Part shown: positions 27,675 to 34,839 of the stretch, in pieces | Numbering within the stretch: the stretch's first letter is position 1 | Layout: every line of letters begins with the position of its first letter | Assembly: GCA_001512495.1 (NCBI GenBank) | Contig: LFRU01000029.1 | Location: forward strand, 1 to 35,428 | Source of the DNA: Syntrophothermus sp. DTU052 | GTDB lineage: Bacteria > Bacillota > Syntrophomonadia > Syntrophomonadales > DTU052 | Reading direction: 5' to 3' | DNA length: 35,428 nucleotides | Notes under the pieces: generated by a model | What the model was told of the DNA's origin: nothing | Databases searched by the model: none | The model's input: the letters and a program-made list of their open reading frames with translations, nothing else | Program-made: the position numbers and the translations under genes

Positions 27675-27733
27675 ATTGAGGTAAAACATGCTGTCATAAG
27701 CACATTAATATGGGAGAGGATGATACAAGTACC

Positions 27734-30280
27734 ATGGAACTAAGTATAATGAACTACACCAATGTGGCATCAGTCGGCTTGGTTCTTTTCATCTTGACCT
27801 TTATGGCCTGGTATATTGGACGGCAGTACCGGACTTTGGTCAGGGCGATGCTCAGTGGGATTGCTGGTCTGTCTGTGTTGCTACTGACGCCGGCAGTTGC
27901 GTTGGCCGGTGAGGCAGATCTGGTATTACCGGTATTAACGCAAGACCAGAACACACTACTATATTACGGTATCGGGGTGTGTGTGCTGGGCATGCTGTTT
28001 GGTGTGTACCAGTTCGTAAAGGTTAAACAGAACGTAGCCCATCAATCTATGCTTGATGTGGCAGAAACCATCTATGAAACGTGTAAGACGTACCTAATTC
28101 AACAGGGGAAACTCCTGACGATACTGTTCGTATTTATCGGTGTATGTATTGCCTTCTACTTTGGTTTTCTTTCGGAGATGCCGTTAGGTTCGGTATTGTT
28201 TATCCTGATGTGGACAATAATAGGTATCCTGGGTTCCTACAGTGTTGCCTGGTATGGAATCCGCATGAATACCCTGGCCAACAGCAGGGTGGCATTTTCC
28301 GCTTTGGAAAGAAAACCTCTCAAGATTTTGAACATTGCTCTGGATGCTGGAATGAGCATCGGGATGGTCCTCGTATGTGTTGAGCTCATCATGATGCTGA
28401 TCATCTTAATGTTTGTTCCTCGTGAATTGGCAGGAGCAAGCTTTATTGGATTCGCAATCGGTGAATCCCTTGGTGCCATGGCCCTGCGTATTGCCGGTGG
28501 CATTTTCACCAAGATCGCCGATATCGGGTCTGACCTGATGAAAATCGTCTTTGGTATTAAAGAAGACGACCCGAGAAATCCTGGTGTCATTGCCGACTGT
28601 ACCGGTGACAACGCAGGTGACAGTATAGGACCGACCGCTGATGGTTTCGAGACTTATGGTGTTACTGGTGTTGCAGTTGTTACCTTTATCGTACTGGCGG
28701 TAGGAAATGCTTTCCCGGCCGCGGACCAGATTGCAATGCAAACCAATTTGCTCACCTGGGTATTCGTAATGCGTGTTTTGATGGTTGTTGCTTCTTTCCT
28801 GGCTTTCTTCATCAACCGGGCTGTCAGCCAGGCTAGATTCGGCCAATCGGATGACTTTGATTTTGAGCAGCCTTTGACCAGTCTGGTATGGATTACCTCC
28901 ATACTTTCGATTGCCGGAACATTCGCCGCCAGCTACCTGATGTTAGGACCATCGTCCTCGGCTCCTGCTGAACTACAGTCCATCTGGGCAGTGCTGGCAA
29001 CCATTATCAGTTTGGGGACACTGGGTGCAGCCCTGATACCTGAAGCTACCAAGATATTTACCAGTCCGAACTCGACTCACGTCGCAGAGGTTGTGAAGGC
29101 ATCCCGCGAAGGTGGGCCGTCACTCAACATTCTGTCAGGTCTGGTTGCAGGTAACTTCAGTGCATTCTGGATCGGCCTGATATTTATCGGCCTTATGTTT
29201 GGTGCTTACTATGCAAGTACATTTGGGTTGGATGTCATCATGATTTATCCATCCATCTTTGCATTTGGTCTGGTGGCCTTTGGAATGCTGGGTATGGGAC
29301 CTGTAACCATTGCGGTTGACAGTTACGGTCCGGTTACCGACAATGCCCAGTCCATCTATGAGCTTTCTCTGATCGAAGAAATCAAAGATGTCGACAAGGA
29401 AATCGAAAAGGATTTCAAATTTAAGCCCGATTTCGATAAAGCGAAGTACTATCTGGAAGCTCAAGACGGCGCGGGTAATACCTTTAAAGCGACTGCCAAG
29501 CCGGTGCTGATTGGTACCGCGGTGGTTGGTGCAACCACTATGATATTCTCGTTGATATTGGTTATCCAGAAGGTTTTGGAGGTACAACCGGAAGCAATCC
29601 TCAACCTGCTTAACCCCTACACCCTGCTGGGCTTCATCGCCGGTGGTGCAGTAATCTACTGGTTTACCGGTGCTTCAACCCAGGCGGTTACAACTGGTGC
29701 CCATAGAGCAGTTCAGTTCATTAAGAACAACATCGACCTTGGTGAGGCAGCCAGCGTTAAAGCTAACACGGAGAATTCCAAAGAGGTTGTTAAGATCTGT
29801 ACACAGTATGCTCAAAACGGGATGTTCAACATCTTCTTAGCACTGTTTTCCTTTGCTCTGGCATTGGCATGCCTGTCAGCACCAGCTGGCGGTAACAATA
29901 ATGCGGTTTCCTTCTTTGTGGCTTACCTGATTGCAATCGCCATAGTTGGTCTGTTCCAGGCTGTGTTCATGGCTAATGCTGGTGGCGCATGGGACAACGC
30001 CAAGAAGGTTGTTGAGGTAGATTTGGCAGAAAAGGGCACTCCGCTTCATGAGGCTACCGTTGTTGGTGATACCGTTGGTGACCCGTTCAAGGATACCTCT
30101 TCGGTTGCGTTGAACCCGATCATCAAGTTCACCACCTTGTTTGGCCTGTTGGCTATGGAAATTGCTATCGCCCCGGCTTTCCGGGATATAGCTCCTATCG
30201 TTGGACTGCTATTCCTGGCCATTGCACTGTTCTTTGTTTACCGTTCCTTCTTCGGAATGAGAATTCCGGAAGAAATCTAG
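27734..30280 (+). CDS. hppA: Membrane-bound proton/sodium-translocating pyrophosphatase, divergent form
   Basis: The enzyme hydrolyses PPi and pumps ions across the cytoplasmic membrane. About 848 residues and many transmembrane helices; canonical forms are near 670-770. PPi/Mg sites seen: D263, D267, E277, D288, D292, D296, and the C-terminal GGAWDNAKK and VVGDTVGDPFKDT (D779, D783, K786, D787). Odd points: the usual DxxxDxxxKxE is one residue shorter (DIGSDLMKIVF) and lacks the final Glu; GNTFKATAK has Lys585 where K+-dependent enzymes have Ala; FETY places the gate Glu (E306) as in Na+-pumps; a charged insert lies near 548-577; about 75 extra N-terminal residues. Start is uncertain: ATG 27734 follows a GAGG-TGAT SD at long spacing, ATG 27710 has none. 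Confidence 0.93.
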   Translation: MELSIMNYTNVASVGLVLFILTFMAWYIGRQYRTLVRAMLSGIAGLSVLLLTPAVALAGEADLVLPVLTQDQNTLLYYGIGVCVLGMLFGVYQFVKVKQNVAHQSMLDVAETIYETCKTYLIQQGKLLTILFVFIGVCIAFYFGFLSEMPLGSVLFILMWTIIGILGSYSVAWYGIRMNTLANSRVAFSALERKPLKILNIALDAGMSIGMVLVCVELIMMLIILMFVPRELAGASFIGFAIGESLGAMALRIAGGIFTKIADIGSDLMKIVFGIKEDDPRNPGVIADCTGDNAGDSIGPTADGFETYGVTGVAVVTFIVLAVGNAFPAADQIAMQTNLLTWVFVMRVLMVVASFLAFFINRAVSQARFGQSDDFDFEQPLTSLVWITSILSIAGTFAASYLMLGPSSSAPAELQSIWAVLATIISLGTLGAALIPEATKIFTSPNSTHVAEVVKASREGGPSLNILSGLVAGNFSAFWIGLIFIGLMFGAYYASTFGLDVIMIYPSIFAFGLVAFGMLGMGPVTIAVDSYGPVTDNAQSIYELSLIEEIKDVDKEIEKDFKFKPDFDKAKYYLEAQDGAGNTFKATAKPVLIGTAVVGATTMIFSLILVIQKVLEVQPEAILNLLNPYTLLGFIAGGAVIYWFTGASTQAVTTGAHRAVQFIKNNIDLGEAASVKANTENSKEVVKICTQYAQNGMFNIFLALFSFALALACLSAPAGGNNNAVSFFVAYLIAIAIVGLFQAVFMANAGGAWDNAKKVVEVDLAEKGTPLHEATVVGDTVGDPFKDTSSVALNPIIKFTTLFGLLAMEIAIAPAFRDIAPIVGLLFLAIALFFVYRSFFGMRIPEEI

Positions 30281-30305: not shown

Positions 30306-30342
30306 AAAGGTCCTGCGTTCTTAATGAATGCAGGGCCTTTTT
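30306..30342 (+). terminator. Strong intrinsic terminator after hppA
   Basis: AAAGGTCCTGCGTTC and GAATGCAGGGCCTTT form a long stem (one G-T pair, otherwise almost complete) around a five-base loop, ending in TTTTT. It closes the secG-hppA transcript. Confidence 0.9.
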
Positions 30343-30366
30343 GTATGAGGTCTCGGAAGGTTTTAG

Positions 30367-30670
30367 CTCGCGCGGGGGAGGGGGAGGTGTTGAATTCCAC
30401 TTGCTTCCGATTCCTTCGCGGGCAACACCGACTGCTCAAGCTCAGCCTCCGAGCAGTACGCCGCCAAACCCGGCATCCATGCCGGAAGGCGGCCTCGTGA
30501 CGTCGTGTCACTCGCCTGCTCTCCGGCCTCGCCTTCGCAGGGTGTTGCGCCGCTTGTCCCCAACGGTCGCTGCGTTGGAATTCACTACCTCCCTCCCTGC
30601 AGGGGTAGTGAGAATAACACACGTGCGGGGAGGTGTGGTCTGTACCTCGCGCGGGGGGTGGGGGAGAGAG
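30367..30670. repeat. GC-rich, foldable non-coding element with imperfect terminal inverted repeats
   Basis: No convincing gene lies in the 510-base gap after hppA. Left arm 30374-30399 (G/A-rich, then TGAATTCCA) is complementary to 30576-30597 (TGGAATTCA then CTACCTCCCTCCC). Inside, GCAACACC (30422-30429) pairs with GGTGTTGC (30541-30548) and encloses three hairpins: ACTGCTC/GAGCAGT (30431-30457), GCCGCC..CCGGCAT/ATGCCGG..GGCGGC (30460-30493) and GTGAC/GTCAC (30497-30511). CTCGCGCGGGG occurs on both sides (30367 and 30646). It looks like a dispersed repeat or a structured RNA; similar repeats are familiar to me from Peptococcaceae genomes, but I cannot verify it. Confidence 0.6.
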
Positions 30671-30790: not shown

Positions 30791-31546
30791 ATGCATGAAG
30801 TGAGTCCAGAGGCCAAGCCCTTTGAGCTGGTCGGAGGCCATATCAACTGTCTTCTCATCCATGGACTGACCGCTTCACCGTCGGAGATGAGACTACTGGG
30901 AGAGTATCTCCACCAGCGGGGGTATTCGGTTTATGCGCCCTTGCTGCCCGGTCATGGAAGAACCCCGAAGCATTTGAACCAAACAGGGTGGCCGGATTGG
31001 TATCAAGAAGTGGAGGCATGGGCGGAAAGACTGCGGCAAGAGCCATATCCGCTGGTGGTGATCGGGCTGTCCATGGGAGCTCTGCTGGCCCTGGAATTGG
31101 GCCTGCGGGTAAAAGGTATACGCGGTTTGGTTTGCATAAACCCCCCGTTGGTGTTGCAGGATTGGAGGAGCAACTGGGCCCGGGTGCTTAAGGTCTTCCG
31201 CAACTATATACCCAAAGCGATAGGTGATGAGGATCGCCAGATGCAGAGCAGGGGCCGATTTGCTTATGACTGCATACCCTTGAAGGCCTTTGTCAGCATG
31301 CAGGCTCTGGTTAAGGACGTCATTAAACAACTGGAGATGATAGACGTTCCCGTTCTTGCGGTTCAGGGAGGCAGAGATGAACTGGTGGACGCCCGGAGTT
31401 ACAAGATAATGTCCCAGCGGTTACCGCCGGAGAGACTGCAGAACCTTTACCTGGAGAGGTCTTCCCATGTAGCGACCATGGGGGAGGAACTGGAGCTGTT
31501 GGGCGCTGCGATTGACAGTTTCGTTTCCGGCTTGCTCGGCGGCTGA
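30791..31546 (+). CDS. Alpha/beta-hydrolase carboxylesterase (Est30-like)
   Basis: A 251-residue alpha/beta hydrolase with LLIHGLTASPSEMRLLGEYL (oxyanion HG), LLPGHGRTP, the nucleophile elbow GLSMG (S94), the acid D196 in VQGGRDELVD and H226 in ERSSHVATM. These positions closely match the monoacylglycerol-lipase-like Est30 of Geobacillus, so hydrolysis of short-to-medium acyl esters is expected. The natural substrate is unknown. The gene commonly sits between secG and rnr in Firmicutes. ATG start, with GGAG about 12 bases upstream. Confidence 0.93.
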   Translation: MHEVSPEAKPFELVGGHINCLLIHGLTASPSEMRLLGEYLHQRGYSVYAPLLPGHGRTPKHLNQTGWPDWYQEVEAWAERLRQEPYPLVVIGLSMGALLALELGLRVKGIRGLVCINPPLVLQDWRSNWARVLKVFRNYIPKAIGDEDRQMQSRGRFAYDCIPLKAFVSMQALVKDVIKQLEMIDVPVLAVQGGRDELVDARSYKIMSQRLPPERLQNLYLERSSHVATMGEELELLGAAIDSFVSGLLGG

Positions 31547-34489: not shown

Positions 34490-34839
34490 GGGGGCGTAAT
34501 GGTTTCGACGGGGGAATAGGTGGAAAGAGCAGCGAGCCGAGTTGGTGCCACCTCGTTAAAACGGTACAAAAAAAGTAACTGCAAACGATAATTACGCACT
34601 AGCGGCTTAATGCCGCTCGTCCGGCCAGGTTTCCTAACGGCCTGGTGCAGGGCGTCATCTAGTTAGGGTACCCTTCCAGCCCTTCTCTCTGGGGGCTTTA
34701 AGGGGAAACTAACAGGGATAGCTTGAAGGAAGCCTGTTCGTGGGCGTCCGGATAGCGAAATCCAAAACACGAACTGCGCTCGGAGATACTGTTTCCGTCG
34801 TTCTTTCGGACGGGGGTTCGACTCCCCCCGCCTCCACCA
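34490..34839 (+). ncRNA. ssrA: Transfer-messenger RNA (tmRNA), tag ANDNYALAA
   Basis: The 350-base RNA has the tRNA-like acceptor: GGGGGCG at 34490-34496 pairs with CGCCTCC at 34829-34835 (one G-U), then discriminator A and an encoded CCA. The T arm is GGGGG-TTCGACT-CCCCC (34812-34828). The conserved GTAATGGTTTCGACGGGG follows the 5' stem. The tag frame is GCA AAC GAT AAT TAC GCA CTA GCG GCT TAA (34581-34610), giving ANDNYALAA, with the degradation signal ALAA. One-piece form, pseudoknot regions in between. Confidence 0.97.

Follow-up and report, generated by a model that had tools for sequence, protein, structure and literature searches.

A multi-branched fold found downstream of the hppA gene in Syntrophothermus sp. 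DTU052 is probably the remnant of an old non-autonomous mobile element (MITE), whose minus strand would carry a core of the TwoAYGGAY RNA type, which would have been moved by IS1182-type transposases and which is predicted to bind the regulator CsrA. The fold lies in a contig of 35,428 nucleotides (hereafter the window). The first-pass annotation of this DNA had offered two readings of the fold, one as a non-coding RNA and one as a mobile element of the non-autonomous kind; both are supported at once, since a covarying core is found inside a MITE family. No strand had been named in that earlier reading; the fold belongs most probably to the minus strand.

The Fold and Its Surroundings

The fold was placed in the window by R1, a covariance model built from an alignment (A1) of 22 copies, with a score of 176.7 bits that is partly due to construction, because the window sequence is one of the 22 copies. 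Every part described in the first-pass annotation is present in the sequence, namely the long imperfect closing stem, a second and perfect eight-base stem, and three hairpins, one of which is nested (Table 1). The arrangement had been judged unlikely to occur by chance. In agreement with this, comparison with dinucleotide shuffles gave z values of -4.3 for the plus strand and -6.0 for the minus strand, neither of which was reached in any of 200 shuffles; when longer flanks are included (30340-30630) the plus-strand value is only -2.0. As had also been stated, no gene accounts for the fold, the overlapping ORFs being only short mechanical ones, and a scan of the segment for a promoter-like site found none.

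Table 1. Features of the fold and of its neighbourhood, in window coordinates.
Feature	Position	Strand	Remarks
hppA, upstream neighbour	27710-30280	+	ORF of 856 aa; gene name from the first-pass annotation
21-nt direct repeat, left copy	30364-30384	+	TAGCTCGCGCGGGGGAGGGGG; 86% identity to right copy
Terminal stem, left arm	30382-30399		GGGAGGTGTTGAATTCCA; 18 nt, 89% complementary to 30576-30593
TwoAYGGAY-type structured core	30386-30588	-	R1 matches the plus strand; functional fold most likely on the minus strand
Inner stem, 5' side	30422-30429		GCAACACC (plus strand); perfect 8 bp with 30541-30548
Hairpin 1	30431-30457		ACTGCTC/GAGCAGT; from reading the sequence
GAGCAG	30451-30456		Long-range with CTGCTC at 30516-30521, or local with 30432-30437
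Apical hairpin 2	30460-30493	-	Nested; GCCGCC/GGCGGC around CCGGCATCCATGCCGG at 30470-30485
Apical hairpin 3	30497-30511	-	GTGAC/GTCAC; minus-strand GTGACACGACGTCAC
CTGCTC	30516-30521		Long-range helix partner of GAGCAG in the minimum-energy fold; helix 8 covaries
Inner stem, 3' side	30541-30548		GGTGTTGC; perfect 8 bp with 30422-30429
Terminal stem, right arm	30576-30593		TGGAATTCACTACCTCCC; 18 nt, 89% complementary to 30382-30399
21-nt direct repeat, right copy	30643-30663	+	TACCTCGCGCGGGGGGTGGGG; 86% identity to left copy
Alpha/beta-hydrolase-like gene, downstream neighbour	30791-31546	+	By inspection

The inner stem falls within helix 6 of the family alignment A3 (see below), in which 95% of cells are paired and every pair covaries. 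Hairpin 1 competes with the long-range helix between GAGCAG and CTGCTC; the latter is held in the minimum-energy fold, and its position corresponds to helix 8, which covaries across the family. Read on the minus strand, the loop of hairpin 2 (CATGGATG) is a complete CANGGANG motif, whose GGA appears as TCC (30476-30478) in the plus-strand sequence.

A terminator-like hairpin belonging to hppA itself lies behind the gene, at about 30309-30342; it was read in the sequence and was not listed by a consensus scanner. In three congeners (G001, G002, and G003) the element is missing from the junction between hppA and the downstream gene, which fits either an insertion in the lineage of the window or a loss in the others; the orthologous intergenic regions are too diverged for a clean insertion junction of the window copy to be defined. 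Terminal repeats and a target duplication were looked for around the element and none was recognisable, while the 21-nt direct repeat that surrounds it is possibly a degraded target duplication, or a product of chance. The window copy looks like an old, diverged and worn member of its family, immobile and with one intact CsrA-type loop, and its function is doubtful because terminal repeats and target duplication are not recognisable and one GGA loop is lost. Elsewhere in the window, a tmRNA gene (RF00023, 205.9 bits) is located at 34490-34839, directly after an smpB-looking ORF.

Distribution and Covariation of the Family

Within the own genome, a DNA search returned a single strong copy; relatives gave many, including at least 13 copies with 71-76% identity among the matches listed for one genome (G004), and in Syntrophomonas shorter matches are scattered over numerous sites. 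The core pattern was found in named records of Syntrophomonas, other Syntrophomonadaceae and Syntrophothermus sp. UBA1445. When folded, copies from four other genomes share a rod with apical hairpins, although each has a terminal stem of another sequence (GAATTCCA, AAAAGTCC, TATAAATATAC). A covariance-model search, suggested in the first-pass annotation, extended this picture: R1 matches are present in 32 of 61 relatives and, in a phylum-wide sample of 398 genomes, in 89; most of them span the whole model, and a genome often has more than one. Further copies in the own genome were located on contigs C5, C14, C54, and C64, and the model recovers copies that are not among the DNA matches listed (G000:C5, for example). 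Plasmid and phage sequences searched by BLAST with the element, and viral contigs searched with the core pattern, gave nothing relevant.

Alignment A3 comprises 68 distinct copies and was fitted to the structure of R1. Covariation is seen in each of the 11 helices; paired cells make up 90% (34-42% when partners are slid), and the covariation score is 0.715, compared with 0.075-0.113 for slid partners and 0.189 after shuffling; these pair and covariation numbers lean towards the structure because A3 was fitted to R1. The size of the gap, together with the covariation seen beforehand in an alignment made by MAFFT, makes chance untenable. The compensatory changes whose absence, along with free change at paired positions, would have spoken against the fold in the first-pass annotation are present, with 57 of the 59 pairs carrying changes on both sides.

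Individual copies show further variation. Several from S. wolfei, including L078, L081, and L091, contain modules of about 50 nt of the type CCTTAATAGYGAC...GGGAGCATCAG...TGCCCG.AGGG, which occupy three fixed positions of the core (the 5' side, the hairpin-2 region and the 3' side), alone or together. In G004, two copies (L039 and L041) have their 3' end broken by the same insert starting with AAAGAGGAAGTTCAGCGTTCCACGCCGAACC, a nested insertion. Near-identical sequence follows the copies L067 (G003) and L071 (G002), and for this reason some insertions look old and common to species.

Relationship to the TwoAYGGAY RNA

TwoAYGGAY RNA corresponds to RF01731, in clan CL00106 (Weinberg et al., 2010, PMC2864571). 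An Rfam scan of the window reported the tmRNA alone; a loose threshold added chance matches, and RF01731 was not reported, the window lying below its gathering threshold. The threshold is passed by other copies (L249/L276, 54.5 bits; L277, 46.1 bits; L278, 45.4 bits; L268, 43.1 bits). The distant copies L268, L249, L227, and L239 are recognised as RF01731 by the Rfam scan, in the orientation opposite to that of R1, and when 61 relatives were searched with RF01731, all eight loci checked turned out to be R1 matches, on the opposite strand and with matching bounds. The same coincidence was seen at further loci scanned with both models. By homology through R1, the window copy therefore appears to be a diverged and unannotated member of TwoAYGGAY below the Rfam threshold. 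GGA is found in both apical loops in 64 of the 68 family copies; the window, with ATGGAT in hairpin 2 and CGA in hairpin 3, is one of the four exceptions.

The drum RNA (RF02958), which is said to come from Weinberg et al. 2017, gave no match above cutoff in ten genomes with R1 matches. It is mentioned beside TwoAYGGAY in CaCoFold work (PMC7657543).

Mobility

The mobility of the family is well supported. In S. wolfei and its close relatives the core lies about 35 nt inside terminal inverted repeats of the type GAYTCYACTGCAAAA, and exact 6-bp target duplications flank 42 of the 76 copies for which both ends were found, as against 1.5% in shuffles. Identical full-length elements of the S. wolfei type occur at up to six sites. 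The target-site duplications that the first-pass annotation had proposed to look for were found in S. wolfei and related copies and not around the window copy.

From the side of the transposase, two insertion sequences of S. wolfei are informative. The ends of the first, 1920 bp long (L221), match a subset of the MITEs (GATGTCACTGC), exact 6-bp duplications flank four of its five copies, and its transposase resembles IS1182, with a score of 167.1 bits that is below the 270-bit cutoff of NCBIfam NF033551. The transposase of the second (L220) reaches 386.9 bits with the same model, above the cutoff, and is clearly IS1182; the ends of this insertion sequence (GTCCGAAACCACTGAAAAAG) resemble those of the G019 copies. 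The R1 fold was searched for inside both insertion sequences and is absent. As expected of MITEs, the family consists of short, non-coding, dispersed copies, and ends in common with an autonomous element are seen between the S. wolfei copies and the 1920-bp insertion sequence and between the G019 copies and L220; for the window copy none were found. A search of the genus with the pattern ATATGTTGTNAAAAAGTCC revealed no evident autonomous partner.

Of 55 loci from across the phylum, 14 have terminal repeats accompanied by a direct repeat in the flanks (p<=0.012, with swapped flanks as the control), L260, L263, and L275 among them. At the other 41 of the 55 a terminal repeat with duplication was not found, so that mobility by the terminal-repeat route is shown for part of the family only. 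Pairs of terminal inverted repeats flanking a transposase ORF were also considered in the loci then examined, and in the cases read the interval contained ordinary genes between neighbouring elements.

Other observations concern the sites and the ends of these elements. At L260, L263, L275, L220, L232, and L245 elements and an IS1182 appear inside palindromes, and the palindrome or a piece of 8-9 bp (e.g., GGACGGTTC) is repeated on both sides, which suggests hairpin targets. Within a genus or family, one core may be accompanied by differing outer repeats (L044-L049, L226, L278-L282; ATATGTTGTGAAAAAGTCC, AGACCGTGTTAAAAC, and G+C-rich ends), and in sequence these copies look as if their ends had been exchanged. 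A sister MITE of S. wolfei (L183, 130-349; L182, 2189-2433) has the same terminal repeats and a different interior, with a very weak R1 match in L183 only (7.9 bits).

The Folded Strand

Three independent features of the 68 copies point to the strand opposite to the R1 match. At paired positions, mismatches in the R1 orientation are C.T in 192 cases and G.A in 17, and the C.T excess corresponds on the other strand to G.A, a comparatively stable mismatch. The folding energy is lower on that strand in 64 of the 68 copies. GGA, finally, is present there in hairpin 2 of all 68 copies and in hairpin 3 of 64, above stems that occur in more than 20 different sequences each. The window sequence agrees, its z value against shuffles being -6.0 on the minus strand and -4.3 on the plus strand. 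Counts of G.U and A.C (119 and 105) are uninformative for the strand. Taken together, mismatch type, folding energy and near-invariant loops indicate that the RNA strand is the minus strand of the window, on which the modelled functional fold is most likely placed.

The same evidence bears on whether the fold has any role as RNA. In a purely selfish MITE, the arms would be kept symmetric by transposition and repair and the fold would be of no consequence for an RNA, and the terminal repeats, the target duplications, the partner insertion sequence and the intergenic position without orientation bias described here would all suit such an element. This reading is nevertheless unlikely, given the strand-specific conservation (192:17 for mismatches and 64:4 for folding energy), the GGA loops that hardly vary on one strand although the stems beneath them change freely, and the persistence of one core with different terminal repeats across genomes.

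CsrA-Type Loops

A high-affinity CsrA/RsmE site is a hexaloop ANGGAX placed directly on a stem (PMC4005645), and CsrA binding has already been proposed for TwoAYGGAY, without mobility, by a motif study (PMC4333381). On the RNA strand, the pattern CAN?GGANG is found in one apical loop in 64 and in the other in 60 of the 68 copies, and it never occurs on the other strand; in 58 copies both loops carry it, and both fit the high-affinity motif. Each core has two GGA separated by 26-34 nt, the hairpin-3 loops being often one base shorter, and in the window copy only the hairpin-2 loop is of the CsrA type. A csrA gene is present in 84 of the 89 genomes with R1 matches and in 201 of the 309 without, raw counts that ignore relatedness and genome size. 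The own genome encodes CsrA; no CsrA match was obtained in five element-bearing genomes (G193, G194, G237, G317, and G403).

From these loops, we infer that a copy with both of them, when transcribed from the minus strand, gives an RNA to which one CsrA dimer can bind. In the mechanism proposed for the mobile TwoAYGGAY element, IS1182-type transposases would mobilise it in trans, its minus-strand transcript would form a rod ending in two hairpins whose ANGGAX-type loops are about 28 nt apart, and one CsrA dimer would bind the loop pair, so that the element would be a mobile CsrA decoy or would itself be under CsrA control. A more general idea, put forward tentatively, is that TwoAYGGAY RNAs may be transposon-borne CsrA decoys that titrate or borrow the host regulator, the core being kept while the terminal repeats are exchanged between insertion sequences.

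The same structural evidence would be compatible with a functional RNA carried by the MITE and recognised by a host factor other than CsrA, for which the five element-bearing genomes with no CsrA match and the G.A mismatches, suggestive of additional non-canonical structure, can be adduced. Since the loops closely fit the CsrA/RsmE motif, with two per molecule at 26-34 nt, this is quite improbable. Strand-specific folding is equally suited to single-stranded DNA, for example during transposition or replication, and G.A pairs form in DNA too; a role of the fold as DNA is nonetheless very improbable, because the 6-bp duplications and IS1182-type ends indicate ordinary double-strand transposition, the partner insertion sequences have no fold, and the loop motif belongs to an RNA-binding protein.

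Genomic Context

With a simple ORF caller, all 138 copies scored fall outside ORFs. The downstream gene is on the RNA strand in 38 copies and on the opposite one in 38 (25 and 26, respectively, in the phylum-wide set), and copies are fewer in divergent than in convergent intergenic regions. For intergenic copies devoid of orientation bias a cis-regulatory function is not supported, and the leader of a downstream gene implied by the Rfam type label "Cis-reg" of RF01731 is scarcely credible in view of this balance (38/38 and 25/26), of the antisense orientation of the window minus-strand RNA to both hppA and the downstream gene, and of the original listing of the RNA as probably not cis-regulatory (Weinberg et al., 2010, PMC2864571).

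Implications and Comparison with Known Systems

The RNA family and the idea of its binding to CsrA were already known. Judged by the literature searched, the new elements are the recognition of the family as a mobile MITE with IS1182-type partners, the conservation of its interior while the ends change, the assignment of the strand from several independent signals, and a reach far beyond the matches of Rfam. A candidate RNA from 2010, for which no function had been established, is the core of a mobile family found in about one fifth of the sampled genomes of the phylum. The annotation of TwoAYGGAY copies changes accordingly, a cis-regulatory label being unsupported, and the earlier CsrA prediction becomes directly testable. 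If CsrA binding is true, a decoy for a global regulator of the host would here be carried by a transposable element.

With the TwoAYGGAY RNA as described, the family shares the coincident placement of RF01731 and R1 and the two apical hairpins with GGA loops; it differs in that the window copy is beneath the detection of the Rfam model and in that the element is here multi-copy and mobile, with no orientation bias and with terminal repeats that vary outside the core. Bacillaceae-1 RNA (RF01690) matches the apical hairpins weakly, on the R1 strand and with 25.2 bits against a cutoff of 35 bits, and its reverse complement has also been matched to the CsrA motif (PMC4333381); its model, however, is of 67 nt and covers the apical part only, and the likeness is at a sub-cutoff score.

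MITEs mobilised by IS1182 are similar in being short and free of ORFs, with terminal repeats matching an insertion sequence, 6-bp duplications and scattered near-identical copies. Ordinary MITEs have their ends in common with their insertion sequence and do not share a structured interior with each other, whereas here many families of the phylum have a conserved interior in common and the terminal repeats change. The small RNAs CsrB, CsrC, RsmY, and RsmZ likewise present hairpins with GGA loops of the high-affinity CsrA/RsmE type; unlike them, the element described here has two such loops per molecule, its binding is predicted, and it is spread over many scattered mobile copies.
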